From the NCBI GenBank assembly GCA_022823775.1, contig JAJEHI010000162.1:1-64000 (forward strand): a DNA stretch of 64,000 nt. The letters run 5' to 3'. Positions 11,067 through 29,390 of the stretch are shown here, in pieces. A model generated the notes under the pieces. It was not told where the DNA came from. It worked only from the letters and a program-made list of their open reading frames with translations, and ran no database searches. The stretch comes from Defluviicoccus sp. Its GTDB lineage: Bacteria; Pseudomonadota; Alphaproteobacteria; MPNO01. Made by a program: the position numbers and the translations under genes. Numbering within the stretch: position 1 is the first letter of the stretch; each line of letters opens with the position of its first letter.

Positions 11067-12212
11067 ATGAGCGTCCCGCTGTCCCAGCAGTTGCGTATTG
11101 GCGCCTACATCGTGAGGCAGCGGTTGCTCGGGGTGCGGCGGTACCCGCTGGTCCTGATGCTCGAACCGTTGTTCAGATGCAACCTGGCCTGCGCCGGCTG
11201 CGGCAAGATCGACTACCCGGATTCGATCCTGGACAAACGAATGAGCGTCGAGGATGCGATCGGCGCGGTCGAGGAGTGCGGCGCTCCGGTCGTCTCGATC
11301 GCCGGCGGCGAGCCTCTGATTCATCGCGAGATCGGGAGGATCGTGGAGGGCATCGTCGCGCGAAAGCGGTATGTCTATCTGTGCACCAACGCGCTGCTGC
11401 TGGAAAAGAAGCTTCACCTCTTCGAACCGAGCCCGTTCTTCTCGTTCTCCATCCATCTCGACGGTACGCGCGAGGTGCATGATCGTTCGGTCTGCGAGGA
11501 GGGCGTTTACGACAAGGCAGTGCACGCGATCGCCACGGCGATCGACGGGGGTTTCCGGGTGTCCATCAACTGCACCTTGTTCGACGGCATCGATGCGGAA
11601 GAGGTGGCGGAGTTCTTCGATGCGATGACCGGGCTCGGAGTCGACGGCGTCACGGTTTCGCCCGGCTACGCGTACGAGCGCGCCCCCGACCAGCAGCATT
11701 TCCTGAATCGCCGCAAGACCAAGGATCTGTTCCGCGCCGTTTTCGAGCGCGGCCGCGGGAAGAAATGGCCGCTCAATCATTCTCCTCTCTATCTCGATTT
11801 CCTCGCTGGCAACCGGGACTACCGCTGCACGCCCTGGGGCAACCCGACGCGCAACGTCTTCGGCTGGCAGCGCCCGTGCTACCTGCTGGGCGAGGGCTAC
11901 GCGTCGTCCTTCCGGGAGCTGATGGACGAGACCGACTGGGAATCCTACGGCACCGGCAACTACGAAAAATGCGCCGATTGCATGGCCCATTGCGGGTATG
12001 AGGCGACGGCGGTCGACGATCTGGCCTCGAACCCCTGGAAAATGTTCAGGTTCGCCCTGTCGGGAGTACGCACCGAAGGACCGATGGCACCCGAGATACC
12101 GCTCGGTGACGCCCGGCCCGCGCAATATGTCTTCGCGGAACTGGTCCAGCAGCGCACGGCGCTAGACGAAAAAGCCGAAGCGGAACCCGCCCAGCACAGC
12201 GACGCTGCGTAG
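11067..12212 (+). CDS. hpnH: HpnH, radical SAM adenosylhopane synthase
   Basis: A 381-residue radical S-adenosylmethionine enzyme. HpnH joins the 5'-deoxyadenosyl group to diploptene to give adenosylhopane, the first step of C35 hopanoid side-chain building. The [4Fe-4S] cluster motif is C-x3-C-x2-C at Cys38, Cys42 and Cys45 (CNLACAGC), followed by the SAM-contact segment SIAGGEPL. Two further Cys pairs near the C-terminus ([13 protein letters not shown]) match the family. The ATG at 11067 is preferred over an out-of-frame ATG at 11060. Its last 51 bases overlap the 3' end of hpnG on the other strand. Confidence 0.95.
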
Positions 12213-12857
12213 CGAGCGGAGCGCTCGCCGATAATCCCGGGCCAGGCCGACCAACGCCAGGAGGTCGGCCGGCCGCCCGAGGCTTTCCATCAGCAACCGA
12301 CTGGCGCGCGGTCCGCCTTCGGACGAAAACGCGGAGAGAAGCGATGACGGGAGACGGCGTTCCGCCGGATCGGCGATGACCCGGACCGCCGCTACGGGCA
12401 GCCCCGCCGCGGCGGCGACCCGCGCCACCGCATGGCTCTCCATGTCGACGACCGCGGCACCCGACGAAGCGGCAAGGGCTGCCTTGGCCGCAACGTCAGC
12501 CAGGGGACTTTCCGTTCCCGCTATCGGCGCGATGACGGTCTCGGGCCCCGATCTCGGCACGGCGGCGAGGCGCGCCGTCCAATCCCCGTCTACCTCCAAT
12601 ATTTCGCCCGCGGGCGCGAGGATTTCGCTTGCGATGACCACGGTCCCCGCGGAAAGCCCCGGCCGCAACCCTCCCGCCGTCCCGAAGCTGAGCAGCCCGG
12701 CCGCACCCCGATCGACCAGGGATCGGGCGAGGGATTCCGCCCGCGCCGTCGAGGCGCCGCAGCACAGGATGCGGACGTTCTCGTTTTTGCCGCCGCGGGC
12801 GGCCCGGGCTTCGGCCGGGAGGCCCGCGACGATCCCCAGCCGCCGCCCGGGAGTCAC
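12162..12857 (-). CDS. hpnG: HpnG, nucleosidase/phosphorylase of hopanoid side-chain synthesis
   Basis: A 231-residue protein of the purine/nucleoside phosphorylase (MTAN) fold. HpnG removes adenine from adenosylhopane to give the ribosyl intermediate. Visible features are the N-terminal [12 protein letters not shown] start, LSFGTAGGL, and the [13 protein letters not shown] motif, whose Glu and following segment bind the nucleoside ribose. The GTG start at 12857 overlaps the TGA of squalene-hopene cyclase (GTGA), so translation is coupled to it. The substrate of HpnG is the product of HpnH, and the two genes face each other with overlapping 3' ends. This arrangement may allow mutual interference (inference). 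Confidence 0.9.
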
Positions 12858-15951: not shown

Positions 15952-16185
15952 TTGCCCGTCCCTTACCACGAGCCGGAAAATATCCGGCTGCAGACACAGG
16001 TGGACGCGGCTCCGACCGCGTACGCCGCACGGCTGGCCGACAGGCTCGAAGAGATTTTCGGGCGGGGGATCCACGATCTCGAGGGAGTCGTCGCGGCGCT
16101 GAACGAATCGGGTCCCGCCCCGGAGGGTGCGGACAGGTGGACCGCCGAGGTCCTGGAGGCGGAGATGATCCGTCTCGGCCCGTAG
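15952..16185 (+). CDS. Small 77-residue protein, recombinase-like helix-turn-helix type
   Basis: A short gene with a TTG start at 15952, six bases after a strong AGGAGG (15940-15945). The product (begins MPVPYHEPENIRLQTQ) is one compact helical unit with the pattern YAARLADRLEEIFGRGIHDLEGVVAALN followed by a W-T segment. From memory, this resembles small recombinase-like helix-turn-helix proteins seen beside aromatic-ring oxygenase genes; the function of those is unknown. It ends nine bases before the Rieske oxygenase start and is the first gene of a seven-gene run. It could be a small regulator or an oxygenase accessory subunit; the sequence does not decide. Confidence 0.7.
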   Translation: MPVPYHEPENIRLQTQVDAAPTAYAARLADRLEEIFGRGIHDLEGVVAALNESGPAPEGADRWTAEVLEAEMIRLGP

Positions 16186-16194
16186 CCGGAGAGG

Positions 16195-17244
16195 ATGGAG
16201 ATGAGGATGACGGCACATCGAGACGCGGTGGACGAGCTCGTCGATCTCGGCGTCCGCAACCGCTGGTACCCGATCGCGTCGAGCTGGATGATTCGCGACA
16301 AGCCGGTTGCGCTGACGCGGCTCGGCGAGCCCATCGTCGTCTGGCGCGGCGGGGAGGGCGAGGTCCATGTGCTCGCCGACCGCTGCCCGCATCGCGGCGC
16401 GCAGCTCTCCAAGGGATGGAATCTCGGCGACCGCCTGGCCTGCTGGTATCACGGGCTGGAGGTCGACGGCAGCGGCACCGTGCTCGCCATGCCGGCGATC
16501 GGCGAGTGTCCGCTGGTGGGCACCCAGGGCGTGAAGTCCTATCCCGCCTTCGAGCACATGGGCGGGATCTTCGCCTATTTCGGCGATGAGCTGCATCCCG
16601 AGCCCGTGCCGTTCGAATATCCGGAGGAACTCCGCTCGCCGGAGTGGAGCGCGATCCTCTGCACCTCGCACTGGCGCTGCAACTACCGCTACGCCATCGA
16701 CAACGTCATGGATCCGATGCACGGCGCCTATCTGCACGCCGAGTCGCATTCCATGGGGCGCGGAAACAAGGATGCGCGGATGCGGATCCGCGACACCGAG
16801 CACGGGTTGATATTCGAGAAGACCAATCAGCGCGGGGTCAATTTCGACTGGGTGGAGTTCGCCGACACCGGCGCGCACTGGATGCGTCTGTCGATCCCCT
16901 ACCAGCGCAACGCGGGGCCGGGCGGCTCGTTCGGGATCGTCGGTTTCGTGACCCCGATCGACCGGGAGAACTGCCGGGTCTTCTTCTGGCGCACCCGGAA
17001 GGTGGAGGGATGGGAGCGCGCGGTCTGGCGCTTCATGTACAAGCACAAGCTGGAAACCCTGCACTGGGACGTGCTCGAGCAGGATCGGATCGTCCTCGAA
17101 GGAATGCCCAACGACGCCCGGGACCGCGAATTCCTTTACCAGCACGACACCGGACTCGCGCGCATCAGGCGGTTGATCCAGGAGGAGGCGGAGCGCCAGG
17201 TCGCGGCCCTCGCGGCAAACGAGCAGGTCGTCGCGGCCGAATAG
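16195..17244 (+). CDS. Rieske non-haem iron oxygenase (large subunit)
   Basis: A 349-residue Rieske oxygenase. The [2Fe-2S] ligands are Cys64 and His66 (CPHRG) and Cys83 and His86 (CWYH). The mononuclear iron site is in DNVMDPMHGAYLH, with likely bridging Asp169 and ligands His176 and His181. It belongs with the single-component-type oxygenases that demethylate or hydroxylate aromatic acids (vanillate demethylase, phthalate dioxygenase), which need a separate reductase. None is encoded nearby. ATGs at 16195, 16201 and 16207 are all possible; spacing to GGAGAGG favours 16201 or 16207. It is second in a co-directional seven-gene cluster and probably makes the first attack on the substrate (inference). 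Confidence 0.92.
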   Translation: MEMRMTAHRDAVDELVDLGVRNRWYPIASSWMIRDKPVALTRLGEPIVVWRGGEGEVHVLADRCPHRGAQLSKGWNLGDRLACWYHGLEVDGSGTVLAMPAIGECPLVGTQGVKSYPAFEHMGGIFAYFGDELHPEPVPFEYPEELRSPEWSAILCTSHWRCNYRYAIDNVMDPMHGAYLHAESHSMGRGNKDARMRIRDTEHGLIFEKTNQRGVNFDWVEFADTGAHWMRLSIPYQRNAGPGGSFGIVGFVTPIDRENCRVFFWRTRKVEGWERAVWRFMYKHKLETLHWDVLEQDRIVLEGMPNDARDREFLYQHDTGLARIRRLIQEEAERQVAALAANEQVVAAE

Positions 17245-17258
17245 AAGGACGAGACCCG

Positions 17259-17771
17259 ATGAGCACCGAGACAGAAACCGCCGAGCGCACCCTCGCTGAC
17301 TGGATGGAGACCCGGATCGCGCGCTACGAGACCCGGCGTTACGACTGGGGCGCGCTCAAGTTCCAGGCCGATTTCGACCCGAAATACCGCCGGGCGCAGA
17401 TGCGTTATCTCGGCACCGGCGGCACCGGGGTGGCCGACGACTCCAATGCCGTGCCCTCCGAACATTTCACGTTCTCGACCATGGTGCTTCCTCCCGGCTG
17501 CGAGGGCCCGCCGCACGTCCATGACGACGTGGAGGAGGTGTTCTTCATGCTTCGCGGGAAGATCCGCCTTACGCTCGAACGGAACGGCGAGACATTCGAG
17601 ACCGAGCTCGGCGAGCGCGACCTGATCTCGGTGCCGCCCGGCGTCTATCGCGGCCTGGTGAACGACGGCGAAGAGGAAGCGCTGATGTGCGTCATGCTGG
17701 GCGCGGCCAGGCCCCGCATCCCGACCTATCCGCCCGAGCACCCCCTGGCGAAGATCAAGCGCAAGGCGTGA
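17259..17771 (+). CDS. Cupin-domain protein
   Basis: A 170-residue single-domain cupin. The metal-binding motif is in GPPHVHDDVEEVFFMLRG, with two His and a Glu; the second cupin motif lies in the DLISVPPGVYRGLVN segment. Small cupins of this type serve as dioxygenases, isomerases or regulators, so the role is open. AAGGA lies eleven bases before the ATG at 17259. Its TGA overlaps the GTG of the next gene (GTGA), so the two are translationally coupled. Confidence 0.82.
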   Translation: MSTETETAERTLADWMETRIARYETRRYDWGALKFQADFDPKYRRAQMRYLGTGGTGVADDSNAVPSEHFTFSTMVLPPGCEGPPHVHDDVEEVFFMLRGKIRLTLERNGETFETELGERDLISVPPGVYRGLVNDGEEEALMCVMLGAARPRIPTYPPEHPLAKIKRKA

Positions 17772-18577
17772 CCCTCCCCCCGCTAGAGACCGTCCGGCGG
17801 AACGGTCGCGCGATCGCCTACCGGGCGGCAGGCGAGGGGCCGCCCGTGCTCCTGCTGCACGGGATCGGCTCTGGCTCGGCGTCATGGGAGGCGCAGTTCG
17901 ATGGGCTTTCGGGGCGCTTTCGGATCGTTGCCTGGGACACGCCGGGCTATGGAGCATCGGACCCTCTCCCCGGCGAGCGGCCGGATTCGGGCGCCTACGG
18001 CGACGCGGTCGCCGACCTTCTCGACGGGCTCGGGCTGGAGCGGATCCACCTGCTGGGCCATTCGCTGGGCGGGTTGATCGCGGCCGCGTTCGCCGCCCGG
18101 CACCCTCGAAGACTGCTCAGCGTGACCCTGTCGGATGCCGCGGCGGGTTACCTGAACGGTCCGAAGGAACTCCGCGTCGACCGTCTGAACGCGCGGATCG
18201 AGGCGATGACCGACCTCGGACCGGCGGAGGTGGCGAAGCGGCGCGCGCGCGAAGTGCTGTCGCCCTCCGCGCCGGAGGGGGCCTACCGCAAGGTCGTCGC
18301 GGTGCAGAGCAGGGTCCGGCCCGACGGCTATGCCCAGGCGGCCCGGATGCTGCACAATTCCGACATCTTCGCTGACGCGGCGACGATCGGGGTGCCCGCG
18401 CTGGTGATGTACGGCAGCGAAGATACGGTCACGCCGGAGTCGATCGGCCGCGACATCGCCGCGGCGATAGGCGGAGCCCGCTACGTCACCCTCCAGGGGC
18501 TCGGCCACGCCAGCTATGTCGAGGGGCCGGAAGCATTCAACGCCGCGCTCACCGGGTTCCTCGACGGTCTGGAATGA
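17768..18577 (+). CDS. Alpha/beta hydrolase
   Basis: A 269-residue alpha/beta-hydrolase of the MhpC/BphD-like kind, which hydrolyses C-C bonds or esters of ring-cleavage products. The oxyanion-hole segment LLLHGIGSGSASW and the nucleophile elbow GHSLGG (Ser99) are present. The acid is probably in MYGSEDTVTP, and the catalytic His in GLGHASYVEGP. The GTG start at 17768 overlaps the stop of the cupin gene. It is the fourth gene of the Rieske-TPP operon and likely cleaves an ester, lactone or vinylogous diketone made by the oxygenase steps (inference). Confidence 0.9.
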   Translation: MTLPPLETVRRNGRAIAYRAAGEGPPVLLLHGIGSGSASWEAQFDGLSGRFRIVAWDTPGYGASDPLPGERPDSGAYGDAVADLLDGLGLERIHLLGHSLGGLIAAAFAARHPRRLLSVTLSDAAAGYLNGPKELRVDRLNARIEAMTDLGPAEVAKRRAREVLSPSAPEGAYRKVVAVQSRVRPDGYAQAARMLHNSDIFADAATIGVPALVMYGSEDTVTPESIGRDIAAAIGGARYVTLQGLGHASYVEGPEAFNAALTGFLDGLE

Positions 18578-18624
18578 ACCCCGACCGCCGGCCGGGTCGG
18601 GCTGCGCAGAGATAGGACCGCGAG

Positions 18625-19419
18625 ATGGATCTCGGGCTTTCGGACAAGGTGGCGGTCGTGACCGGCGGGTCGTCGGGTATTGGGCTTGCAGCGGCACGGA
18701 TATTTCTCGAAGAGGGTGCCCGGGTCGGGATTTGCGGCAGGTCCGGGGACCGGCTGGCCGTGGCGGAGCGGTCGCTCGCCGGGCCGCACGGCGCTGACCG
18801 CGTACTCTCCGCGGCGTGCGACGTGCTCGACCCCGCGCAAGTAGAGGGCTTTCGCGACCGCGTGGCGGAACGCTTCGGTCGCGCGGACATTCTGGTCGCC
18901 AATGCCGGGCAGGCGCGCCGCGGGGGGATCGACGACCTAGGCGACGACGAATGGCGCGCCGAGCTCGACCTGAAGTTCTTCTCGGTCCTGCATCCCGCCC
19001 GCGCCTTTCTGCCTCTGCTGGAATCGGCCGCGCCGTCCGCCATCGTCTGCACGAACGCGCTGCTGGCGCGGCGCCCCGAGCCCTGGCTGGCGGCGACCTC
19101 CGCCGCGCGGGCCGGTGCTCTCAACCTTGCCAAGACGATGAGCCGGGACTTCGCGCCCAGGGGAATCCGGGTCAACTCGATTCTGATCGGGCTGGTCGAT
19201 TCGGGGCAGTGGAACCGCCGTTTCGAACAGGGCGAGGCCGGCGGAAAGAGCAAGGAAGAATGGTTCGCCGAGCTCGCCGCCGAGCGGGGAATACCGCTTG
19301 GCCGACTGGGGGAAGCCGACGAAGCGGCGAGGGTGATGGTTTTTCTCGCCTCCCCGGCGGCGAGCTACCTGACCGGGGAGACGATCGAAATCGCGGGCGG
19401 GCAGGGGCACCATGTCTGA
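18625..19419 (+). CDS. Short-chain dehydrogenase/reductase-fold protein lacking the Y-x3-K catalytic pair
   Basis: A 264-residue SDR-fold protein. The cofactor-binding TGGSSGIG (residues 13-20) and the NAG motif are intact, and the C-terminus has the normal SYLTGETIEIAGGQG. At the active site, however, the usual Tyr-x3-Lys is replaced by Thr158-x3-Arg162 (ATSAARAGALN), and the Ser about 13 residues earlier is not kept (TNALLA). A normal SDR redox reaction is therefore unlikely. It could bind NAD(P) and catalyse another step, or be a structural partner. It overlaps the thiamine-diphosphate enzyme by eight bases. The rest of the chain is well preserved, so it is not a pseudogene. Confidence 0.85.
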   Translation: MDLGLSDKVAVVTGGSSGIGLAAARIFLEEGARVGICGRSGDRLAVAERSLAGPHGADRVLSAACDVLDPAQVEGFRDRVAERFGRADILVANAGQARRGGIDDLGDDEWRAELDLKFFSVLHPARAFLPLLESAAPSAIVCTNALLARRPEPWLAATSAARAGALNLAKTMSRDFAPRGIRVNSILIGLVDSGQWNRRFEQGEAGGKSKEEWFAELAAERGIPLGRLGEADEAARVMVFLASPAASYLTGETIEIAGGQGHHV

Positions 19420-21058
19420 TCGGATCTCCGCCGGAGAGCTGGTCGCCGCGCTCCTCGAATCCGCGGGCGTCGACACCGCTTTCGGGGTTATCTCGATCCA
19501 CAACATGCCGATGCTGGATGCGATCGGGCAGCGCAACCGCATCCGTTTCGTGCCGGCGCGGGGGGAGGCGGGCGCGGTCAACATGGCGGATGCGAACGCG
19601 CGGGTCTCCGGCGGGCTCGGCGTCGCGTTCACCAGCACCGGGACGGGGGCAGGCAACGCGTGCGGCGCGCTGGTCGAGGCGCAGACCGCGGGCACCCCGC
19701 TGCTCCACCTGACCGGGCAGATCGAAACGAAATACCTCGACCAGGAGCGCGGCTACATTCACGAGGCGCGCGACCAGTTGACCATGCTGCGCGGCGCCTC
19801 CAAGGCGGCCTACAGGGTAAGGAGCGTATCCGACCTGCCGGGCACGCTGCGCGAAGCCGTCCGAGTGGCGCAGAGCCCTCCGGCCGGCCCGGTGAGCGTC
19901 GAGATACCGGTCGACATTCAGGAATCCTCGCTCGACAGACCGGCCTCGCTCGCGCCGCTCGCACCCGCGCGCCCCGAGCCCGATGGGGCGGCGCTGGACC
20001 TCCTGGCCGACGCGCTGGCGGGCTCGCGCCGGCCGATGCTCTGGCTCGGCGGCGGCGCGCGCGGAGCGTCGGCGGAAGCCCGCGCGCTGGCCGGTCTCGG
20101 CTTCGGCGTCGTCACCAGTATCCACGGGCGGGGCGCGATACCGGAAGGCGATCCGATGTCGCTCGGCGCCTACAACTTCCAGCCGGCCGTGGAGGCGTTC
20201 TATGCGAACTGCGACGCGATGCTGGTCGTCGGTTCCCGGCTGAGGAGCAACGAGACGCTGAACTATAAGCTGGCGTTGCCGCGCCCGCTCTACCGGATCG
20301 ATGCCGATCCCCGGGCAGACGGGCGGTCCTTCGCCAACGACATTTTCGTCTGCGGCGACGCGGCGATGTCGCTGGCGGGGCTCGCCCAACGGCTGGACGG
20401 GCGAACGGAAATCGACCCCGGCTTTGCCACGGACCTCGCCGCTGCCCGCGAATCGGCGCAAAGCGCGCTTCGCGGCACGCTCGGGCCGTATACAAGACTC
20501 ATGGACGATCTCCAGGCGGCGGTTCCGGACGATGTCGTCTGGGTGCGCGACATCACGCTTTCCAACAGCACGTGGGGCAACCGCGCGCCGCGTCTTTCGG
20601 GACCGCGCGACGGTGTCCATGCCGTGGGCGGCGGCATCGGGCAGGCGCTGCCGATGGCGGTCGGCGCCGCGCTCGCCGCGAACGGGCGAAAGACCGTTGC
20701 GCTCGCGGGCGACGGCGGGCTCGCGCTTTCCCTCGGCGAGATTTCCACCCTCGTCCAGGAGCGCGCCGATGTCGCGCTGATCGTCATGAACGACGGCGGC
20801 TATGGCGTGATCCGGAACATCCAGGATCGCAAGTTCGACGGCAGGCGCCTCTATGCCGACATCGCGCTGCCCGACCTGGGTGCGCTCGCGCGCGGGCTCG
20901 GGCTTCCGTTCCGCCGCGTCTCCGATACCGGCGGAATGCGGCCGGCGCTCGACTGGGCGATCTCGGCCGACGGGCCGGCCATGTTGGAGATCGACATGAG
21001 CGCGGTCGGCCCGTTCGCGGTGCCGTTCGCCGGGCCGCCCGCCCGCCCGAAGGATTAA
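19412..21058 (+). CDS. Thiamine-diphosphate-dependent enzyme (acetolactate synthase/benzoylformate decarboxylase type)
   Basis: A 548-residue three-domain thiamine-diphosphate enzyme. Glu52 (PARGEAGAV) is the conserved glutamate that activates the cofactor. The diphosphate/Mg motif is GDGG at 433-436, with Asn460 in MNDGGYG, the normal GDG-x24-27-N spacing. The middle domain resembles the central TPP-enzyme domain. The reaction is decarboxylation or carboligation of a 2-oxoacid; the substrate cannot be read. It overlaps the SDR-like gene by eight bases and is followed four bases later by the aspartate-dehydrogenase-like gene, so the trio is made together and may handle one 2-oxo- or imino-acid intermediate (inference). 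Confidence 0.9.
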   Translation: MSDRISAGELVAALLESAGVDTAFGVISIHNMPMLDAIGQRNRIRFVPARGEAGAVNMADANARVSGGLGVAFTSTGTGAGNACGALVEAQTAGTPLLHLTGQIETKYLDQERGYIHEARDQLTMLRGASKAAYRVRSVSDLPGTLREAVRVAQSPPAGPVSVEIPVDIQESSLDRPASLAPLAPARPEPDGAALDLLADALAGSRRPMLWLGGGARGASAEARALAGLGFGVVTSIHGRGAIPEGDPMSLGAYNFQPAVEAFYANCDAMLVVGSRLRSNETLNYKLALPRPLYRIDADPRADGRSFANDIFVCGDAAMSLAGLAQRLDGRTEIDPGFATDLAAARESAQSALRGTLGPYTRLMDDLQAAVPDDVVWVRDITLSNSTWGNRAPRLSGPRDGVHAVGGGIGQALPMAVGAALAANGRKTVALAGDGGLALSLGEISTLVQERADVALIVMNDGGYGVIRNIQDRKFDGRRLYADIALPDLGALARGLGLPFRRVSDTGGMRPALDWAISADGPAMLEIDMSAVGPFAVPFAGPPARPKD

Positions 21059-21062
21059 GCCC

Positions 21063-21860
21063 ATGCTGAACGTCGTTCTGATCGGTCGCGGCGCGATCGC
21101 CACGGAGGTCCTGAAACACATCCGGCCCGGCGGCGGGGTGAGCGTCACCGGCGTCATCGTCCGCCCCGGCCGGGAGGCCGAAGCGCGCGAGGCGCTCCCG
21201 CCCGCCATCGAGGTGGCGAGCGCCATCGGCGATTTCACCGCCTCGCCCGACCTGATCGCCGAGTGCGCGGGCCATGCCGCGGTGGCCGAATTCGGCGAGG
21301 AAGCGCTGAGGCGCGGCATCGACTTCCTCGTCATTTCCATCGGCGCGCTGGCCGATGCGGCTCTCCGCAACCGGCTGGAGGCGGCGGCGGAGGCCGGCGG
21401 GGGCAAGCTGATCCTTCCCGCCGGCGCGGTCGCCGGCGCCGATGCGCTGACGGCCGCCCGCATCGGCGGTCTGCAACGGGTGGTCTACACCTCGCGCAAG
21501 CCGCCGGCGGCGTGGCGCGGAACGCCGGCCGAGAAAGCGCACGATCTCGACGCGCTCGCCGAACCGACGACGCTGTTCGAGGGCGCGGCCGACGAGGCGG
21601 CGACGCTCTATCCGCAGAACGCGAACGTGGCGGCCACTATCGCTCTCGCCGGGGCCGGGTTCGACCGGACCGACGTGAAGCTGATCGCCGATCCGGGCGC
21701 CGGCGGCAACATCCATCAAGTCCGGGTCGAGGGGACGTTCGGCGCCTTCGACATCGAGGTGCGCGGCAAGCCGTTGCCCGACAACCCCAAGACCTCGACG
21801 CTTGCCGCCCACAGCGTCGTCGCCGAGATTCTGCGCCGCGCCGCCGCGGTGGAGATTTAG
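21063..21860 (+). CDS. Aspartate dehydrogenase-like NAD(P)-dependent enzyme
   Basis: A 265-residue member of the L-aspartate dehydrogenase (NadX) family. The N-terminal nucleotide-binding segment is VVLIGRGAIATEV; the signature LPAGAVAGADAL and the likely catalytic His218 in GGNIHQV are both present. Known members oxidise L-aspartate to iminoaspartate/oxaloacetate, sometimes for NAD synthesis. Here no nadA or nadC is nearby and the gene is the last of a catabolic operon, so action on a related amino acid or imino acid is more likely (inference). The ATG at 21063 follows the TPP enzyme by four bases. Confidence 0.87.
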   Translation: MLNVVLIGRGAIATEVLKHIRPGGGVSVTGVIVRPGREAEAREALPPAIEVASAIGDFTASPDLIAECAGHAAVAEFGEEALRRGIDFLVISIGALADAALRNRLEAAAEAGGGKLILPAGAVAGADALTAARIGGLQRVVYTSRKPPAAWRGTPAEKAHDLDALAEPTTLFEGAADEAATLYPQNANVAATIALAGAGFDRTDVKLIADPGAGGNIHQVRVEGTFGAFDIEVRGKPLPDNPKTSTLAAHSVVAEILRRAAAVEI

Positions 21861-21903
21861 TTTTTCGACCGGACACGATCAGGGGGGTGCTGATGTCCGA
21901 GAC

Positions 21904-22008
21904 GCCCCCTCACCCCGGCCCTCTCCCCCGGGGGGGAGTGGGGGATTTGCCCGCCTACTCGTCCTTACCTTCTCCCCTCCCGCTTGCGGGAGGGGCCGGG
22001 GGAGGGCG
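21904..22008. repeat. Palindromic intergenic repeat, copy B (inverse of copy A)
   Basis: A ~105-base element whose reverse complement matches 6889-6986 across both arms and the middle. One arm has cctcaccccggccctctccc; the other has CCCGCTTGCGGG inside a cccct...aggggccgggggaggg context. It fills the gap between the convergent aspartate-dehydrogenase-like gene and the minus-strand hydrolase and could act as a bidirectional terminator. No other copy was noticed in the window. Confidence 0.8.
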
Positions 22009-22026
22009 CCTCCTCGGCGCTTCCGC

Positions 22027-22866
22027 TCAGTTCAATCCGGCGAGGAAGGCGGCGACGGTTTCGGCCGTTTCTTCCGGCTTTTCGATGAAGGGAATGTGGC
22101 CGCCGCCGGGAATCTCGGCATAGACCGCGCCGGGGATCGCCTCGGCGATGATTTTCGAGAACTTCGCCGGAATGAAATAGTCGTTGTCGCCGGTGAGCAC
22201 GAGCGTCGGACACGAAACGCTCCGGATCTTCTCGGTCCAGAGCGGCTCGTTCTCCTGGCCCGGAAGGCGGCGGCCCCACGACAGGATCGAGTCCAGGAAG
22301 GCGGTATAGAGGCCGGGATCGTTGGCGCGGACGTTCTCCTGGTTGGCCCGCATGACCGCGAGCCCTTCGTCGGTGTCCATGAATTCCCGCGTCATGGTCG
22401 ATAGCCCCATGAAATCGGCGAGCTCCTCGCCCATGCCGATCTTCGCGACGATCTTCTTGCGGAGCGCAAAATTCATCTCCATCGCCCGGTCGAGCTCGGA
22501 GAACCCGCCGACCACGATCATCGAGCGCACCGCATCCGGATGACGCACCGCCATCGCCTGGGCTATCGATCCGCCGAGCGAGGAGCCCAGGATGTCGACG
22601 CTCTCCCATCCCGCCTCGCGGGCCAGCGCGGCGAAGTCGTCGGCCCAAAGCTCGGACGTGTAGCGGACCTCCGACGGATCGTCCTTCCGCGAGCGGCCCA
22701 CGCCGCGCGGATCGAGGAGGACCGTCGTGCAGCTCTCGCGCAGCAGCGGCTCGCCGAGCCGGTAGTAGCGGTGGTCCATGCCGAGTCCCGGAAAGAGCAT
22801 CAGCGGATGTCCGCTGCCCTGGGTCTCGTACCAGATCTCGGTACCGTTGACCGATGCGGTCGGCAT
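22027..22866 (-). CDS. Alpha/beta hydrolase
   Basis: A 279-residue alpha/beta hydrolase. The oxyanion-hole segment is LMLFPGLGMDHRYY, with LLDPRGVGRS after it; the nucleophile elbow is GSSLGG, a Ser variant of the more common GHS. The acid probably lies in LTGDNDYFIP and the His in GGGHIPFIEKP. The ATG at 22866 has a strong GGAGGAGGG site. It starts 12 bases after the stop of the molybdenum hydroxylase gene in the same direction and is likely co-transcribed, hydrolysing an ester, amide or lactone near that oxidation step (inference). Confidence 0.88.
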   Translation of the reverse strand: MPTASVNGTEIWYETQGSGHPLMLFPGLGMDHRYYRLGEPLLRESCTTVLLDPRGVGRSRKDDPSEVRYTSELWADDFAALAREAGWESVDILGSSLGGSIAQAMAVRHPDAVRSMIVVGGFSELDRAMEMNFALRKKIVAKIGMGEELADFMGLSTMTREFMDTDEGLAVMRANQENVRANDPGLYTAFLDSILSWGRRLPGQENEPLWTEKIRSVSCPTLVLTGDNDYFIPAKFSKIIAEAIPGAVYAEIPGGGHIPFIEKPEETAETVAAFLAGLN

Positions 22867-22878
22867 GGTCCCTCCTCC

Positions 22879-25230
22879 TCAGCCTTGCGCGGCTCGCAGC
22901 GCCTGCCATACGCGGTGGGGGCTCGCCGGGAGCGGCAGTTCCGCCACACCGCGCGCGGCCAGAGCATCGAGAATAGCGAGGATCGCCGCAGGGTATGAGC
23001 CCCCGTTGCCGGCTTCGCCGCAGCCCTTCACGCCGAGCGGGTTGGTCGTGCACGGCACCGGGTGGGTGGCGAAGTCGACCCATGCCATGTGGTCCGCGCG
23101 CGGCATCGCGTAGTCCATGTAGGACCCGGTGACGAGCTGGCCGTCGTCGTCGTAGACGGTGTTCTCCAGCAGCACCTGACCGAGGCCCTGGGCGATTCCC
23201 CCGTGCACCTGTCCCTCGACGATCGGCGGGTTGAGAACGGTGCCGAAATCGTCGACCACGGTATAGCGGTCGACCGCGGTCTCGCCGGTGTCGGGGTCGA
23301 TCTCCACCTCGCAGACATGGCAACCGTTGGGGAAGCTGATCGGGCTCGTGTCGTGCGAGCACTTCGCGTCGAGCCCGTCCGAGAGGTCTTCGGGCAGCGC
23401 GGGGTTCCGGCGGGCTTCCGCCGCGAGGCTCATGATGTCCTTCGACCGGTCGGTCCCCGCCACGCGGAAGACCCCGCCCGCGAATTCGATGTCCTCCACC
23501 GCCGCTTCCAGCAGATGGCCCGCGATCTTTCGGCCGCGTTCGATGACCGCTTCGCCCGCCTCCAGAATGGCGCCGCTCGACGCGATCGCCGAGCGCGACC
23601 CGCCGGACCCGCCCGCGCCCGGGCTCATCTCGTCGGAATCGTGCTGGATCATGCGGATTCGTTCGAACGGCACGCCGAGCTTATCGCTCAGCACCTGCGC
23701 GAAGGGCGTCGCGTGTCCCATGCCGAAATCGCAGGTACCGGTGACCAGCGTCACCGTTCCATCGGCCTCGAAACGGATGTCGGCAAGTTCCGTGCCGGGC
23801 GCGGCGGTGGTCTCCAGATAAGGCGCGATGCCGAGCCCGCGGAGCTTGCCCGACGCCTCGCTGGCACGGCGGCGGCGGGCGAAACCGGCCGTATCTGCGC
23901 GCGCCATCGCTTCGTCCATGATCGCTTCGAAATCGCCCGAATCGTAGGTCAGCCCGACCGGTGTCTCGAACGGCATCTGGTCGGGCCGGACAAGGTTGCG
24001 GCGACGCAGCTCGATCCGGTCGATGCCGGTCTCGATGGCGGCCTTGTCGATAAGGAGCTCGAGGAAATATTTCGATTCCGGCCGCCCGGCGCCGCGATAG
24101 GGGCCGGTGGGGACGGTGTTGGTGAACACGCATTTCGCGCCATAGGAGAACAGCGGCGTCTTGTAGACGCTGATGATGTTGCGGCTGACCACCATGGTCA
24201 CCGGCCACGGCCCCATCGCCGTCAGGTAGGCGCCCATGTCGCCGAGCGCGTCGACCTTCAGGGCGAGAAAGTTGCCGTCCTCGTCGAGCCCCAGAGCGAG
24301 GTCGACCGTCATCGCTCGCCCCTGGTGGTCGGAGAGGAAGCTCTCCGAACGGTCCGCGCACCATTTGACCGGGCGGCCCAGCCGGCGGGCCGCGTACATG
24401 ACGCAGATCGCCTCGCTATAGGCCGCGCCCTTCATCCCGAAGGAGCCGCCGATATCGTCGCTGACGACCCGGATCCTTTCCGGCGGCACGCGGAAGATCG
24501 CGTTGGCGAGGGTGGCGCGATAGCCCGTGACGCCCTGGCTTCCGACATGGACGGTGAATTTTTCCTCCCGCGGATCGTATTGCGCGAGGGCCGCGCGCGG
24601 TTCCATCGCGTTGACCACCATGCGGGTATTGTCGAGCCGGATGCGGGAGACGTGATGGGCGCCGGCGAGCGCCGCGTCGACCGCCTCCTCGTCGCCCATG
24701 TGGAAGTCGAGGAACACGTTGCCCGGGGAAGACCCCCACAGTTGGGGAGCATCGGAATCGAGCGCGCGTTCGACGGAGGCCGCGACGGGGAGGGACGAGA
24801 TCTCGAACGGTATCGACTCCGCGGCGTCGTGGGCAGCGGCGAGGGTCTCCGCGACGACGACCGCCACCGGATCGCCGACATGGCGCACCCGCCCGACGGC
24901 GAGCGCCGGGCGCGGCGGCACGCTGGGCGCCGAGCCGTCGCGGTTCTTCATCGGCACCGGGCACGGGATGTGCCCGATGCCGTCGGCTTCCAGGTCGGCG
25001 CCCGTGTAAACCGCGAGCACGCCGGGCGAGTCGGCGACGGCGGAGACGTCGAGCGTCGCGATCTCGCCGTGGGCCGCCGGCGAGCGCAGGAAGACCGCGT
25101 AGGCCTGGCCGGGCGCGTTGCGGTCGTCGGTGTAGCGCCCGCCTCCGGAGAGCAGGCGCGGGTCCTCGGTCCTGGGGACCGGCTGCCCGATCCCGAATTT
25201 CAGCGCTTCCTGTCCGCTTTCTCCGGCCAT
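22879..25230 (-). CDS. Xanthine dehydrogenase-family molybdopterin-binding subunit, without its Fe-S and FAD partners
   Basis: A 783-residue large subunit of the molybdenum hydroxylase family. It begins with the usual GIGQPVPRTEDPRLLSGGGRYTDD segment. It has the GGSFGMKG pterin-binding loop, the PYRGAGRPE motif, and near the C-terminus the GVKGCGEAGN segment with the catalytic Glu. The YRGAGR motif places it with aldehyde/heterocycle oxidases and form II CoxL relatives, not true CO dehydrogenase, which has a Cys-containing loop. The matching 2Fe-2S and FAD subunits are not next to it; the set at 55-56 kb belongs to another large subunit. It must share subunits or use ones encoded elsewhere. 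Confidence 0.92.
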   Translation of the reverse strand: MAGESGQEALKFGIGQPVPRTEDPRLLSGGGRYTDDRNAPGQAYAVFLRSPAAHGEIATLDVSAVADSPGVLAVYTGADLEADGIGHIPCPVPMKNRDGSAPSVPPRPALAVGRVRHVGDPVAVVVAETLAAAHDAAESIPFEISSLPVAASVERALDSDAPQLWGSSPGNVFLDFHMGDEEAVDAALAGAHHVSRIRLDNTRMVVNAMEPRAALAQYDPREEKFTVHVGSQGVTGYRATLANAIFRVPPERIRVVSDDIGGSFGMKGAAYSEAICVMYAARRLGRPVKWCADRSESFLSDHQGRAMTVDLALGLDEDGNFLALKVDALGDMGAYLTAMGPWPVTMVVSRNIISVYKTPLFSYGAKCVFTNTVPTGPYRGAGRPESKYFLELLIDKAAIETGIDRIELRRRNLVRPDQMPFETPVGLTYDSGDFEAIMDEAMARADTAGFARRRRASEASGKLRGLGIAPYLETTAAPGTELADIRFEADGTVTLVTGTCDFGMGHATPFAQVLSDKLGVPFERIRMIQHDSDEMSPGAGGSGGSRSAIASSGAILEAGEAVIERGRKIAGHLLEAAVEDIEFAGGVFRVAGTDRSKDIMSLAAEARRNPALPEDLSDGLDAKCSHDTSPISFPNGCHVCEVEIDPDTGETAVDRYTVVDDFGTVLNPPIVEGQVHGGIAQGLGQVLLENTVYDDDGQLVTGSYMDYAMPRADHMAWVDFATHPVPCTTNPLGVKGCGEAGNGGSYPAAILAILDALAARGVAELPLPASPHRVWQALRAAQG

Positions 25231-25311
25231 CTCGTTCCATTCGTCGTTGTGTCGAAACGGGCCGGGCGGCCCATGGACCGCCCGGCGGTGTCGCTGTCGG
25301 GACGATCGCCC

Positions 25312-26022
25312 CTATTCGGCGGCGGCGTTCTCGTTGCGGCGGGAGGAGGCTTCCAGCCTCGCGACCAGCTCGTCGGTCTGCTGCACGTCTCCGAAGTAAA
25401 GATAGAAATTGCCGAGCGCCGCGGCATGCTCGCCGTCGCTCATCGTCGCGCATCCGTCGGAGACCATCAGCGATCGGTAGTTGAGCATCATCGCGTCGCG
25501 CGCCGTGGATTCGCAGCACACATTGGTCGCCACCCCGGTGACGATGATGGTCTCGATCCCGTGGTCGCGCAGGACGATTTCGATATTGGACGATCCGTGG
25601 ATGAAGGCGCTGTAACGCCGCTTGACGACGATCTCGTCCTCCTCGCGGACATCGAGGGTGGGCCAGAGCTGGAAGGCCCGCGAATCGCGCTGCATGGAAT
25701 TCAGGCGGCGCTCGCCCTTCTCCGGGGTGTAGCGCTCATGCGCGACCGACCAGCTGTCGAGCGACTCCTTCGTCGCGAGGTTCTGCAGCCAGATCACCAG
25801 CCCCCCGGCGTTCCGTACCGCTTCGGCGAGGCGGTTCACGTTGGGGACGATCTCCTGCGCCACCGGCGCGGCGCCGAGCTGGCCTTCCTCCATGAAATAG
25901 ATCTGCATGTCGACCACCACCAGGGCGGTCTTCGGGCCGTCGAAGGTCTCGCAGGTATGGGGTCGGCCCTGACGTTCGACCATCCGGTCGACATACTCCT
26001 TGGGCATCTCGAATGGGTGCAT
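25312..26022 (-). CDS. Isochorismatase-family cysteine hydrolase
   Basis: A 236-residue cysteine hydrolase. The catalytic triad is visible: Asp38 in ALVVVDMQ, a Lys in IVVKRRYSAF, and Cys169 in TGVATNVCCESTARDA. The family hydrolyses isochorismate, nicotinamide, N-carbamoylsarcosine and ureidoacrylate; the TNVCCESTARDA pattern is closest to the amidase-like branch (RutB, carbamoylsarcosine amidase). A GGGAGG site lies five bases before the ATG at 26022. It is 81 bases upstream of the molybdenum hydroxylase and may belong to the same degradation route, for example removing an amide or carbamoyl nitrogen (inference). It is divergent from the TRAP QM genes. Confidence 0.88.
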   Translation of the reverse strand: MHPFEMPKEYVDRMVERQGRPHTCETFDGPKTALVVVDMQIYFMEEGQLGAAPVAQEIVPNVNRLAEAVRNAGGLVIWLQNLATKESLDSWSVAHERYTPEKGERRLNSMQRDSRAFQLWPTLDVREEDEIVVKRRYSAFIHGSSNIEIVLRDHGIETIIVTGVATNVCCESTARDAMMLNYRSLMVSDGCATMSDGEHAAALGNFYLYFGDVQQTDELVARLEASSRRNENAAAE

Positions 26023-26226: not shown

Positions 26227-26811
26227 ATGAGCGATATCGGCCAGGAGAACGGCTCGGCCCTGAGCCGGGTTGTCGGCGCCGGGGTGGTGACCCTGCCGCG
26301 ACTCATCATCGGCTCGCTGATCCTGTTCGGCATCGCGGTCAACTTCGCCAACGTCCTCGGCCGCTACCTGTTTCTCGCGCCCATCGTCTGGGCCGAGGAG
26401 ATCATGATCTATTCGATGGTGTGGATGGTGTTCATCGGGGCGGTGCTGGTGAGCTGGGACGGCCACCACCTCAAGATGGATTTCTTTTCGATCATGCTGC
26501 CGTCCCCGTTCAAGGAGATCATGAACTTCACCGGCGTGGTGTGCTTTCTCCTGGTCTGCATCTTCGTGCTGCCCCAGACCTTCACGGTGACCGAGCTGAT
26601 GTTCCGGCTCGACCAGCGCAGCGTGGTGGCGGAGATCCCGATGGTGATCCCGCACTTCGCGATCCTGCTGGGCTTCATCATGATGTTCGTGGTGATCGTG
26701 TGGCGATTCAAGCGGTTGATACGCGGCGACCTCTCCAGCGAGGTCGAGGACCTGATCGCGGCCACCGAAAAGCAGCAGGACGTACCGCTCAACCGGGGCG
26801 CATCCGGCTGA
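26227..26811 (+). CDS. TRAP transporter small permease subunit (DctQ family), second system
   Basis: A 194-residue small TRAP subunit with four hydrophobic segments. The NVLGRYLF...WAEEIMIYSMVWMVF region and DGHHLKMDFF match the DctQ pattern. The frame is open further upstream, but MSDIGQEN at 26227 is the natural start. DctM follows after 55 bases. No DctP-type gene lies beside this pair: upstream is the divergent cysteine hydrolase and downstream a TctC-like protein. The charged C-terminal tail extends about 30 residues past the last membrane segment. Confidence 0.9.
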   Translation: MSDIGQENGSALSRVVGAGVVTLPRLIIGSLILFGIAVNFANVLGRYLFLAPIVWAEEIMIYSMVWMVFIGAVLVSWDGHHLKMDFFSIMLPSPFKEIMNFTGVVCFLLVCIFVLPQTFTVTELMFRLDQRSVVAEIPMVIPHFAILLGFIMMFVVIVWRFKRLIRGDLSSEVEDLIAATEKQQDVPLNRGASG

Positions 26812-26866
26812 GCGCGGTCCGCGGCCGCGCAGGGAAACGCTGGGCAGGGTATCGGGGAGACAGGGT

Positions 26867-28141
26867 ATGGAGTGGGTGATGGTGCTGATGCCGATCGGTC
26901 TTCTGATCCTCGGCTTCCCGATTTTCATCATCCTGCTCGCCACCTCGGCGATCATTCTCCTGTTCTTCATGCAGGTGCCGCTGACCGCGGTTCACCAGGT
27001 CATGTTCGGCAGCGTCGACAAGTTCGCGCTGATGGCGGTGCCGTTCTTCATTTTCGCCGGCGAGCTGATGGGCATGGGCGGCATCTCCCAGCGCATCATC
27101 GCATGGGTCATGTCGGTGATCGGCGGGATGCGGGGCAGCCTGCCGCTGACCACAGTCGGTACCTGCACCATTTTCGGCGCGATCTCCGGATCGAGCCCGG
27201 CCACGGTGGCCGCGGTCGGCCGGCTGATGTACCCGCCGCTCCGCGAGAAGGGCTACAACGAGAAATTCTCGACCGGCGTGCTGACCTCCTCCGGCGCCAT
27301 CGCCATCGTCATCCCGCCGTCGATCAGCATGATTCTCTACGGCGCATCCGCCGAGCAGTCGGTGTCGCATTTGTTCATCGCCGGCATCTTTCCGGGCCTC
27401 CTGATGTCGCTGATGATGGGCGGCTACATCTACTGGTACGCCGCCCGCCGCGACATCCGCGAGGGCCAACCCTTCCAGATGCGGGAGTTCCTGCGGGCCA
27501 GCAAGTCCGGTATCTGGGCGCTCGGCACGCCGGGCATCATCCTCGGCGGCATCTATGCCGGCGTCTTCTCGCCGACCGAGGCGGCGGGCATCGCCTGCGT
27601 CTACGCGATCCTCGTCACCAAGTTCATCTACGGCGACATATCCTGGCGCGGAATCTGGGACGTCTCGATCAACTCGATGTATCTGACCGCGCAGGTGCTG
27701 ATCATCGTCGCCGGCGCGGGCGTGTTCTCCTGGCTGCTGACCGTCAGCGGCATCCCGCAGGCCGCGGTCGCCGCGATTCAGGCGCTCGAGGTCCCGCCCT
27801 GGGTCATCCTGATGATCATCAACGTGTTCCTGCTGATCGTCGGCTGCCTGCTCGACCCCGGGTCGGCGATCCTGGTTCTGACCCCGCTGCTCGCACCGAT
27901 CGCGGCGGCGCTCGGCGTCGATCTGGTGCATTTCGGGGTCATCATGACAGTGAACCTCGCGATCGGGATGTTCACCCCGCCCTTCGGTCTGAACATCTTC
28001 GTGGCCCAGGCTTTGTTCAAGGCGCCGCTGAGCAGCATTTATCCCGGGCTGGTGCCGTTCATCGTGATCAACATCCTCGCACTGGTGATCGTCACCTATG
28101 TGCCCGAACTGTCGCTCTACCTGCTGAAGTTCCTGGGATGA
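26867..28141 (+). CDS. TRAP transporter large permease subunit (DctM family), second system
   Basis: A 424-residue DctM-type permease. The family segments are clear: the AVPFFIFAGELMGMGGIS stretch, the IFGAISGSSPATVAAVG segment, the IPPSISMILYGA motif, and TPPFGLNIFV near the C-terminus. GGGGAGA lies seven bases before the ATG at 26867. It forms a QM pair with the gene before it but has no neighbouring DctP binding protein. A TctC-like protein starts 62 bases downstream, but that family normally works with TctAB, whose gene follows it. Confidence 0.93.
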   Translation: MEWVMVLMPIGLLILGFPIFIILLATSAIILLFFMQVPLTAVHQVMFGSVDKFALMAVPFFIFAGELMGMGGISQRIIAWVMSVIGGMRGSLPLTTVGTCTIFGAISGSSPATVAAVGRLMYPPLREKGYNEKFSTGVLTSSGAIAIVIPPSISMILYGASAEQSVSHLFIAGIFPGLLMSLMMGGYIYWYAARRDIREGQPFQMREFLRASKSGIWALGTPGIILGGIYAGVFSPTEAAGIACVYAILVTKFIYGDISWRGIWDVSINSMYLTAQVLIIVAGAGVFSWLLTVSGIPQAAVAAIQALEVPPWVILMIINVFLLIVGCLLDPGSAILVLTPLLAPIAAALGVDLVHFGVIMTVNLAIGMFTPPFGLNIFVAQALFKAPLSSIYPGLVPFIVINILALVIVTYVPELSLYLLKFLG

Positions 28142-28203
28142 TCCGCGCGTTCCAGGCCGGACGGGACGGCGACCGCCGCGAGGTTCGCAAAAGGAGAAAC
28201 CGA

Positions 28204-29301
28204 ATGTCCTCGAAAAGAAGCTCCCTTCGGCACGTGGCCGCCGGCATCGGGGCGACTCTCCTCGCCGCCCTGCCCGTGTCGGCGGCGGCGGACATGTCCG
28301 GAAAAACGGTCCAGTGGGTAATCCCGTTCTCCGAGACCGGCGGTTCGGCCAAATGGGCCAATTTCTTCGCGCCGCTGTTGAGCGAAGCTCTGCCGGGCAA
28401 GCCGACCGTTGTGGTGAAATTCATGCCGGGCGCCGGGTCGACGAAGGGCGCGAACTGGTTCCAGCGGCAGAAGCACAAGGACGGTACGCTGCTGTTCGGA
28501 TCCTCCGGGTCGACCCAGTTCCCCTACCTTCTCGGCGACCCGCGGGTGCGTTACGAGTACAAGGACTGGAACCCCGTCATGGCGACGGGCACCGGCGGGG
28601 TGGCCTATCTGGACAAGAAGAGCGGCGCCAGGTTCGACGGGACCGCGAACAAGCTCAAGGACATCGAGTTCATCTACGGTTCGCAGGGCGCGACCCGGCT
28701 GGACCTAGTTCCGCTCCTGGCCTGGCGGATGCTGGGGATGAAGGTCGAGCCGGTCTTCGGCATCAAGGGGCGCGGCGACGGCCGGCTGATGTTCGAACGC
28801 GGCGAGGCCAATATCGACTACCAGACTTCGTCGGCCTACCTCTCCGGATCGATGCCGCTCGTCAAGGCGGGCACGGCGGTTCCGATGATGTCGTGGGGCG
28901 CGCTGGATGCGAACGGCAATATCGTGCGCGATCCGACCTTCCCCGACATCGCGACTTTCAAGGAAGTCTGCGAAGCGACGGCCGGCTGCGAGACCAAGGG
29001 CGATGCCTGGGATGCGTGGAAGGCCTTCTTCGTCGCCGGTTTCCCGTCGCAGAAGATCGCCTTCCTGCCGCGCGGAACGCCCAAGGAGGTGATCGATACC
29101 TACGAGACGGCGTTCGCCAAGGTGAAGGCGCGTCCGGACTTCGCGAAGATTTCGGCGAAGAGGGTCGGCAAGTACCCGATGTTCGTGGGCGCCGAAGCCA
29201 AGGCCGCCCTGGGCACCGCCACCTCGGTGCCCGACAAGGCCAAGGCTTTCGTGACCGGCTGGCTCAAGGAAGCCTACGGCGTCTCTCTCAAGAAGAAGTG
29301 A
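28204..29301 (+). CDS. TctC-like periplasmic binding protein (tripartite tricarboxylate transporter family)
   Basis: A 365-residue secreted binding protein. Residues 1 to about 29 are a signal peptide ending in SAAAD. The mature chain follows the TctC/Bug pattern, though diverged: a first strand KTVQWVIPFSETGGSAKWANFF, then PGAGSTKGANWF in place of the usual PGAGGNIG region, and KDGTLLFG. It should bind an organic anion in the periplasm for the permease at 29391. AAGGAG lies seven bases before the ATG at 28204. The slightly long chain and unusual inserts suggest a distinct ligand. It lies between a TRAP QM pair and a TctA-type permease, so both could in principle use it, but the family pairs with TctA. 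Confidence 0.85.
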   Translation: MSSKRSSLRHVAAGIGATLLAALPVSAAADMSGKTVQWVIPFSETGGSAKWANFFAPLLSEALPGKPTVVVKFMPGAGSTKGANWFQRQKHKDGTLLFGSSGSTQFPYLLGDPRVRYEYKDWNPVMATGTGGVAYLDKKSGARFDGTANKLKDIEFIYGSQGATRLDLVPLLAWRMLGMKVEPVFGIKGRGDGRLMFERGEANIDYQTSSAYLSGSMPLVKAGTAVPMMSWGALDANGNIVRDPTFPDIATFKEVCEATAGCETKGDAWDAWKAFFVAGFPSQKIAFLPRGTPKEVIDTYETAFAKVKARPDFAKISAKRVGKYPMFVGAEAKAALGTATSVPDKAKAFVTGWLKEAYGVSLKKK

Positions 29302-29390
29302 CGGCCTTGATCCATACGCTGCCCGAACGCCGCCGCGGGGTGCCGCCCATCTAGCGAGAGAACCGCAACGGGCCGGAGGAAAGGTCTCCC

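Follow-up and report, generated by a model that had tools for sequence, protein, structure and literature searches.

A widespread proteobacterial operon, reduced in Defluviicoccus, with a probable role in aerobic degradation of aromatic acids

Introduction

What pathway would require a Rieske oxygenase, a cupin, an alpha/beta hydrolase, a short-chain dehydrogenase/reductase (SDR)-fold protein, a thiamine-diphosphate (TPP) enzyme and an aspartate dehydrogenase (AspDH) together? The question is raised by a seven-gene operon, headed by the gene for a small HTH_62 protein, in Defluviicoccus sp., a wastewater bacterium. The operon lies in a 64,000-nucleotide stretch of DNA (positions 1 to 64,000 of contig JAJEHI010000162.1, assembly GCA_022823775.1; hereafter the window), whose source genome is a 4.8 Mb assembly of 198 contigs. 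An original prediction, made from the sequence alone, knew of no described pathway for this combination, and no paper assigning one was found in the open-access literature, although a subscription paper could exist. Single members are already known, namely the AspDHs and the Pseudomonas aeruginosa SDR Q9HYA2; what is new is a widely conserved catabolic operon without an assigned pathway, present here in a reduced form. We consider it probable, at roughly 0.65, that this is a widespread proteobacterial operon for the aerobic degradation of the ring of an aromatic, probably N-heteroaromatic, acid.

Conservation of the gene set

The original prediction had proposed a synteny comparison across genera, and in the loci collected, gene calls together with tblastn find the gene set kept in synteny across three proteobacterial classes, the Alpha-, Beta- and Gammaproteobacteria. 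A sample of 200 Burkholderiaceae genomes has the cluster-type TPP gene in 95, and a set of 61 genomes taken around the genus of the window has it in 22, the named near relatives being metagenome-assembled genomes (MAGs) of Defluviicoccus with 79-88% identity in the TPP enzyme. Annotated records of the plasmid collection carry the cluster in Klebsiella, Acinetobacter, Caballeronia and Pseudosulfitobacter. At 41 loci picked for the TPP gene, tblastn detected the AspDH and the alpha/beta hydrolase in 40 each, the SDR in 38, the cupin and an IclR regulator in 37 each, the Rieske oxygenase and a second SDR (SDR2) in 35 each, an extradiol dioxygenase of the VOC family in 34, an aldehyde dehydrogenase (ALDH) in 33 and HTH_62 in 32; because these loci were chosen by the TPP gene and are phylogenetically non-independent, the counts describe the cluster and are not a rate. 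The predicted seven-gene operon holds up as a conserved set, although not as the whole system, since fuller versions in other genomes comprise 14-16 genes.

Among the Defluviicoccus loci the seven-gene order is identical, the frames are intact in the window and in two further loci (L033 and L034), and ratios of nonsynonymous to synonymous substitution (dN/dS) of 0.06-0.21 between Defluviicoccus genomes indicate purifying selection in all seven genes. Given these ratios and the synteny across three classes, the gene set is far above chance. In Defluviicoccus bin129 (L035), the AspDH gene at 11658-12433 is split into two overlapping frames by a frameshift in the gene or in the assembly. The suggestion that the TPP enzyme, the SDR and the AspDH may act as one unit was not borne out: the block is not fixed, the order in Klebsiella and Acinetobacter being SDR-AspDH-ALDH-TPP, and nothing seen here favours a physical complex. 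Five gammaproteobacterial loci (L047, L048, L049, L051 and L053) have an xdhA-type gene upstream of a distant relative of the TPP enzyme (31-33%), a pairing that is possibly a separate TPP/molybdenum-hydroxylase system.

A probable ring-cleaving pathway in the fuller clusters

The genes added in the fuller clusters encode electron-transfer proteins (an AndAb/HcaC-like Rieske ferredoxin and an HcaD/AndAa-like FAD reductase or a Fer2-type reductase), an SDR2 with the classical YxxxK motif, a two-domain HpaD-like extradiol VOC dioxygenase and an HpaE/BADH-like ALDH. Regulation and uptake are represented by IclR, a porin and an MFS or NMT1-type ABC transporter; the transporter of the Caballeronia cluster is of the aromatic-acid/H+ symporter type. 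Aligned to homoprotocatechuate 2,3-dioxygenase, the cluster VOC keeps the iron ligands and the second-sphere His and Tyr. Because the extra genes are components for ring hydroxylation and ring cleavage and the VOC keeps its catalytic residues, the full cluster looks like a ring-hydroxylating, extradiol ring-cleaving aerobic pathway.

A ring dioxygenase system, a diol dehydrogenase and an extradiol dioxygenase occur together in fuller clusters elsewhere and not at the window locus. The earlier picture of a catabolic operon in which oxidative attack comes first and the handling of a 2-oxo or imino acid last is supported; its placing of the oxidative opening within the seven genes is not, as ring cleavage is most likely performed by the extradiol VOC dioxygenase, which is absent from this locus. 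In a sister genus (L136), SDR2 and IclR are still inside the operon, and the window operon is therefore read as a reduced form.

The order of chemistry, from Rieske oxygenase to SDR to extradiol VOC, is likewise that of naphthalene/biphenyl meta-cleavage operons, whose lower pathway consists of a hydratase and an aldolase, whereas the cluster instead has a TPP enzyme, an ALDH and an AspDH. A second comparison is offered by the riboflavin/lumichrome catabolic (lum) operon of the actinobacterium Nocardioides, with 25 genes that include a P450 and amidases (PMC12746152). By its description, that operon resembles the cluster in bringing together a TPP heterocycle decarboxylase, Rieske and extradiol dioxygenases, a xanthine-oxidase-type hydroxylase and a cupin, there used on an N-heteroaromatic; it differs in its two-protein TPP enzyme (LumK/LumL) and its alpha/beta Rieske enzyme, and aspartate is not mentioned.

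Properties of the encoded proteins

The window Rieske protein has the cluster motifs C64-x-H66 (CPH) and C83-x2-H86 (CWYH) and the iron-site motif DPMHGAYLH, which place it among the Rieske oxygenases. Its nearest neighbours in a tree are cluster-borne Rieske proteins of UBA830 and other cluster genomes; its best match in the PDB is dicamba O-demethylase, with carbazole and 2-oxoquinoline oxygenases as further matches.

The leader had been described as a small HTH-like protein, and that description stands: it scores well above the cut-off of HTH_62, a recombinase-like helix-turn-helix family (Table 1), and its predicted fold has three helices (predicted local distance difference test, pLDDT, 81). 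All 48 copies in the collected loci, which were not chosen independently of the Rieske gene, lie upstream of a Rieske gene on the same strand, 40 of them directly and eight with genes between. The genome from which the window comes has a further copy elsewhere, in which an in-frame fusion joins HTH_62 to a Rieske oxygenase (G000:C166:161-1447; L114:161-1450). Two sister genomes (G496:C150 and G495:C196) share this fusion with 87-90% identity, and it is hence conserved in three Defluviicoccus genomes in total. Because of this conserved fusion, a role as regulator is disfavoured and the HTH_62 protein is probably a partner of the Rieske oxygenase, with which DNA binding would still be compatible.

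Between distant clusters, the cupin shows the highest conservation of all members (61-96% identity across loci). Residues H86, H88, E92 and E93 are invariant, and an equally invariant Arg131 replaces the usual His of the second motif, leaving the set of three His and one Glu metal ligands incomplete. Its predicted structure is only moderate (pLDDT 69.5), and a structure search matched nothing more specific than general cupins. The alpha/beta hydrolase has its Ser99-Asp219-His247 triad in place, with enol-lactonases and C-C hydrolases among the nearest solved structures.

As predicted, the usual active site is missing from the SDR: YxxxK is replaced by TxxxR in 31 of 32 orthologues and by SxxxR in the remaining one (L068). 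The upstream Ser is mostly kept and is Ala in Defluviicoccus, the glycine-rich cofactor motif is kept, and the protein is classed only as an SDR fold of the PRK07062 family, not as a classical SDR dehydrogenase. Its closest solved relative (PDB 3lf1, E=1e-82) is Q9HYA2 of P. aeruginosa, a close relative in sequence whose structure (PDB 3lf1/3lf2) is reported to have an atypical catalytic centre, and for which, to our knowledge, no reaction is known. The TPP enzyme, a member of PRK07064, has Glu52, GDG at 433 and ND at 460; its relatives in the PDB are of the BFD/ALS type, and it is predicted to be a 2-oxo acid decarboxylase.

Aspartate dehydrogenase and a probable nitrogen-containing substrate

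The window AspDH has both domains, a score above the family cut-off and the catalytic His218 in a GGNIH motif. NAD(P)-dependent activity with Asp/oxaloacetate is established for the K. pneumoniae AspDH (PMC5554190), and this assayed enzyme, as given by its primers (MKKVMLIGY...CRELA), agrees at both termini with the cluster enzyme of L066. The R. eutropha AspDH (MSMLHVSM...HAVSI), likewise an assayed enzyme, agrees at both termini with the cluster enzymes of L086-L089. In that work and its references (PMC5554190), the AspDHs of R. eutropha, K. pneumoniae and P. aeruginosa are handled as single enzymes for aspartate production, not as part of a cluster.

In Caballeronia NK8, pNK84 (L068/L108) carries a complete cluster and, behind it in tandem, a second module that comprises Rieske, TPP and VOC genes and a three-subunit xanthine dehydrogenase (XDH)-type molybdenum hydroxylase; a chemoreceptor gene also lies in the second module. 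Molybdenum hydroxylases are of a type that often acts on N-heteroaromatics. A protein of the Rid family, which is known for imine/enamine hydrolysis, adjoins the Rieske gene in eight clusters. Nitrogen in the substrate is suggested by this combination of an AspDH in nearly all clusters, a Rid-family protein in eight and the molybdenum hydroxylase in the NK8 module. The window's genome has three more AspDH-family matches (G000:C100, C166 and C18), and the contig of the C166 match also carries the HTH_62-Rieske fusion and a gene for a molybdenum hydroxylase.

Kynurenate as a candidate substrate

Among aromatic acids, an N-heteroaromatic of the quinoline-carboxylate type is the most likely substrate, and kynurenate is the best single candidate. 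A kynurenate 'quinoline pathway' of Pseudomonas was reportedly worked out by Hayaishi and co-workers in 1961-63. It runs through the 7,8-dihydrodiol to 7,8-dihydroxykynurenate, whose extradiol 8,8a cleavage gives a 2-oxo-acid side chain, and continues by reduction, decarboxylation to an aldehyde and oxidation to 5-(2-carboxyethyl)-4,6-dihydroxypicolinate. The 1961-63 work is cited in PMC11354673; genes for bacterial kynurenate breakdown were not found described in the open-access literature. Such a pathway calls for a ring dioxygenase and its electron carriers, an enzyme that dehydrogenates the diol, an extradiol dioxygenase, a decarboxylase for the 2-oxo acid and an ALDH, and the full clusters have a gene matching each of them. 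The Rieske system, SDR2, the VOC, perhaps the atypical SDR, the TPP enzyme and the ALDH match these steps by number and type. In the dihydroxypicolinate ring at the end of the route, the C4-N part stands at the level of iminosuccinate, which fits the cluster AspDH. The old scheme assigns no step to the cupin, the atypical SDR or the hydrolase.

We infer the substrates, the order of reactions and the roles of these three proteins as follows. The Rieske oxygenase, with HTH_62 as its partner, would dihydroxylate the benzo ring, together with a ferredoxin and reductase that are encoded beside the Rieske gene in other genomes and would come from elsewhere in Defluviicoccus. The classical SDR2, encoded beside the Rieske gene in relatives, would aromatise the diol, and the extradiol VOC would cleave the ring and leave a side chain with a 2-oxo acid at its end. 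This chain may be reduced, or made ready in some other way, by the atypical SDR; the TPP enzyme would decarboxylate the 2-oxo acid to an aldehyde, and the ALDH would oxidise that aldehyde. The cupin and the alpha/beta hydrolase would then open and split the remaining N-ring. By carbon count, lactam opening and a C4-C5 split of 5-(2-carboxyethyl)-4,6-dihydroxypicolinate would yield glutarate and iminosuccinate, a substrate of AspDH, and the hydrolase and cupin are the enzymes left over for this step. The AspDH would take the released C4 imino/amino acid, converting iminosuccinate to L-aspartate or acting in reverse. That kynurenate, a product of tryptophan, is itself the substrate is a tentative proposal and somewhat doubtful. 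Equally tentative is the idea that these are the genes so far missing for the 1960s pathway, in which HTH_62 would be a new kind of small Rieske partner and dihydroxypicolinate would be turned into iminosuccinate by the atypical SDR together with the cupin and the hydrolase.

Counter-evidence and alternative explanations

Several points weigh against the proposed degradation of an aromatic acid ring. The window locus is without SDR2, VOC, ALDH, ferredoxin, reductase and regulator, and among the collected loci VOC and ALDH are not near several Rhodospirillales clusters. The best SDR2 of the window's own genome (62% to that of L036; G000:C166:1490-2239, L114:1484-2245), which adjoins the fused HTH_62-Rieske gene, has one in-frame TAG and is either a pseudogene or an assembly error. 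VOC homologues of about 42% occur in the order with or without the cluster; the VOC of the genome was rejected as proof of a complete pathway, since cluster-negative relatives, used as a control, show the same homologues. Given the genes missing at the locus, the stop in SDR2 and the cluster-independent VOC homologues, a complete pathway in this genome is uncertain. With regard to kynurenate, tryptophan 2,3-dioxygenase (TDO), a link to tryptophan and kynurenine, is present in 144 of 200 Burkholderiaceae genomes, none of them having it near the cluster at the listed positions. A CoA-transferase and an acyl-CoA dehydrogenase are encoded next to the Pseudosulfitobacter cluster; considered as a link to glutarate, the pair fits other families better and falls below every relevant cut-off.

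It may be asked whether the operon has been decaying or been repurposed in Defluviicoccus, leaving a remnant with no working pathway. The absence of SDR2, IclR, VOC, ALDH and electron-transfer genes from the locus would agree with this, as would the internal stop in the SDR2 of this MAG, but the low dN/dS of all seven genes, the intact frames in the window, L033 and L034, and the uniform gene order make such a remnant quite improbable. The VanA_C catalytic domain of the Rieske protein and its best match to dicamba O-demethylase could point instead to an O- or N-demethylating (or side-chain) monooxygenase acting on a methylated amino-acid-like or methoxylated substrate; no ring would be cleaved, and the VOC and ALDH, which are not near the window operon or several Rhodospirillales clusters, would serve a separate use. 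Such a demethylase is unlikely in view of the VOC and SDR2 found at 34 and 35 of the 41 loci, both typical of cis-diol/catechol routes, the additional matches to carbazole and 2-oxoquinoline oxygenases, and the aromatic-acid type of the Caballeronia transporter. An operon for L-aspartate and oxaloacetate has also to be considered, in which the AspDH would form oxaloacetate, the TPP enzyme would decarboxylate this to malonate semialdehyde, and the ALDH or the SDR would finish the route, feeding polyhydroxyalkanoate (PHA) synthesis in Ralstonia. The cluster AspDHs do match true aspartate dehydrogenases, and Li et al. are said to have found in 2011 that the AspDH gene cluster of R. eutropha JMP134 is induced by L-aspartate and tied to PHA accumulation. 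However, this leaves the Rieske system, extradiol dioxygenase, aromatic-acid transporter, porin, cupin and hydrolase unexplained, and we regard it as highly doubtful.

Layout and surroundings of the window operon

The seven open reading frames are present and co-directional, as predicted, and span 15952-21860 on the + strand of the window. The intergenic gaps are, in order, 9, 14, -4, 47, -8 and +4 bases, and there are therefore two overlaps rather than the three originally counted. The start codon of the leader gene at 15952 has AGGAGG just upstream. Pfam and NCBIfam profiles with curated cut-offs, used to assign all seven proteins to families, uphold the labels given from the sequence (Table 1).

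Table 1. Genes of the window operon and their family assignments
Product	Position	Strand	Length (aa)	Remarks	Profile evidence
HTH_62 small protein	15952..16185	+	77	TTG start	PF20552, 70.5 bits (cut-off 27)
Rieske non-heme iron oxygenase alpha subunit	16195..17244	+	349		PF00355 and PF19112 (VanA_C)
Cupin	17259..17771	+	170		PF07883 (Cupin_2)
Alpha/beta hydrolase	17768..18577	+	269	GTG start; PcaD/RutD/MhpC-like	PF00561
SDR-fold protein	18625..19419	+	264	PRK07062	NF005468, 361.5 bits (cut-off 266)
TPP enzyme	19412..21058	+	548	PRK07064	NF005470, 811 bits (cut-off 495)
AspDH	21063..21860	+	265	PRK13303	PF01958 and PF03447; NF009828, 319 bits (cut-off 177)

Converging on the operon from the - strand (22027-26022) are genes for an alpha/beta hydrolase, a lone molybdenum-hydroxylase large subunit (xdhA) and an isochorismatase-family hydrolase (RutB/nicotinamidase-like). 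These genes also flank the operon in L033 and L034 but not in L035; this group was left out of the system, its first two genes staying with the operon in the former two loci and not in the latter. Between the converging operons, at 21900-22010, is a GC-rich repeated stretch (ccctctcccccggggggg / cccctcccgcttgcgggaggggccgggggaggg), either a repeat element or a bidirectional terminator. Further on, the + strand at 26227-31421 carries TRAP transporter genes (DctM-type at 26867), then a gene for a 676-aa multi-membrane protein that is TctA-like by eye.

Biological significance

The operon is common, occurring in environmental Burkholderiaceae, Klebsiella and Acinetobacter, and one member is present in P. 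aeruginosa, as identified through PDB 3lf1. Genes of this kind have appeared in surveys that point to no substrate: the AspDH, ALDH and TPP genes of A. baumannii are listed in a mucin study, and PA3505 is listed as essential in host-like media. If kynurenate or a near relative is degraded, the operon would supply genes for enzymes that are not known to have had any for sixty years, and common host-associated bacteria would be able to break down a tryptophan metabolite active in the nervous and immune systems. The SDR with its unexplained active site would likewise gain a reaction, and the HTH_62 family a role. With this operon, the old question of bacterial kynurenate degradation becomes testable.

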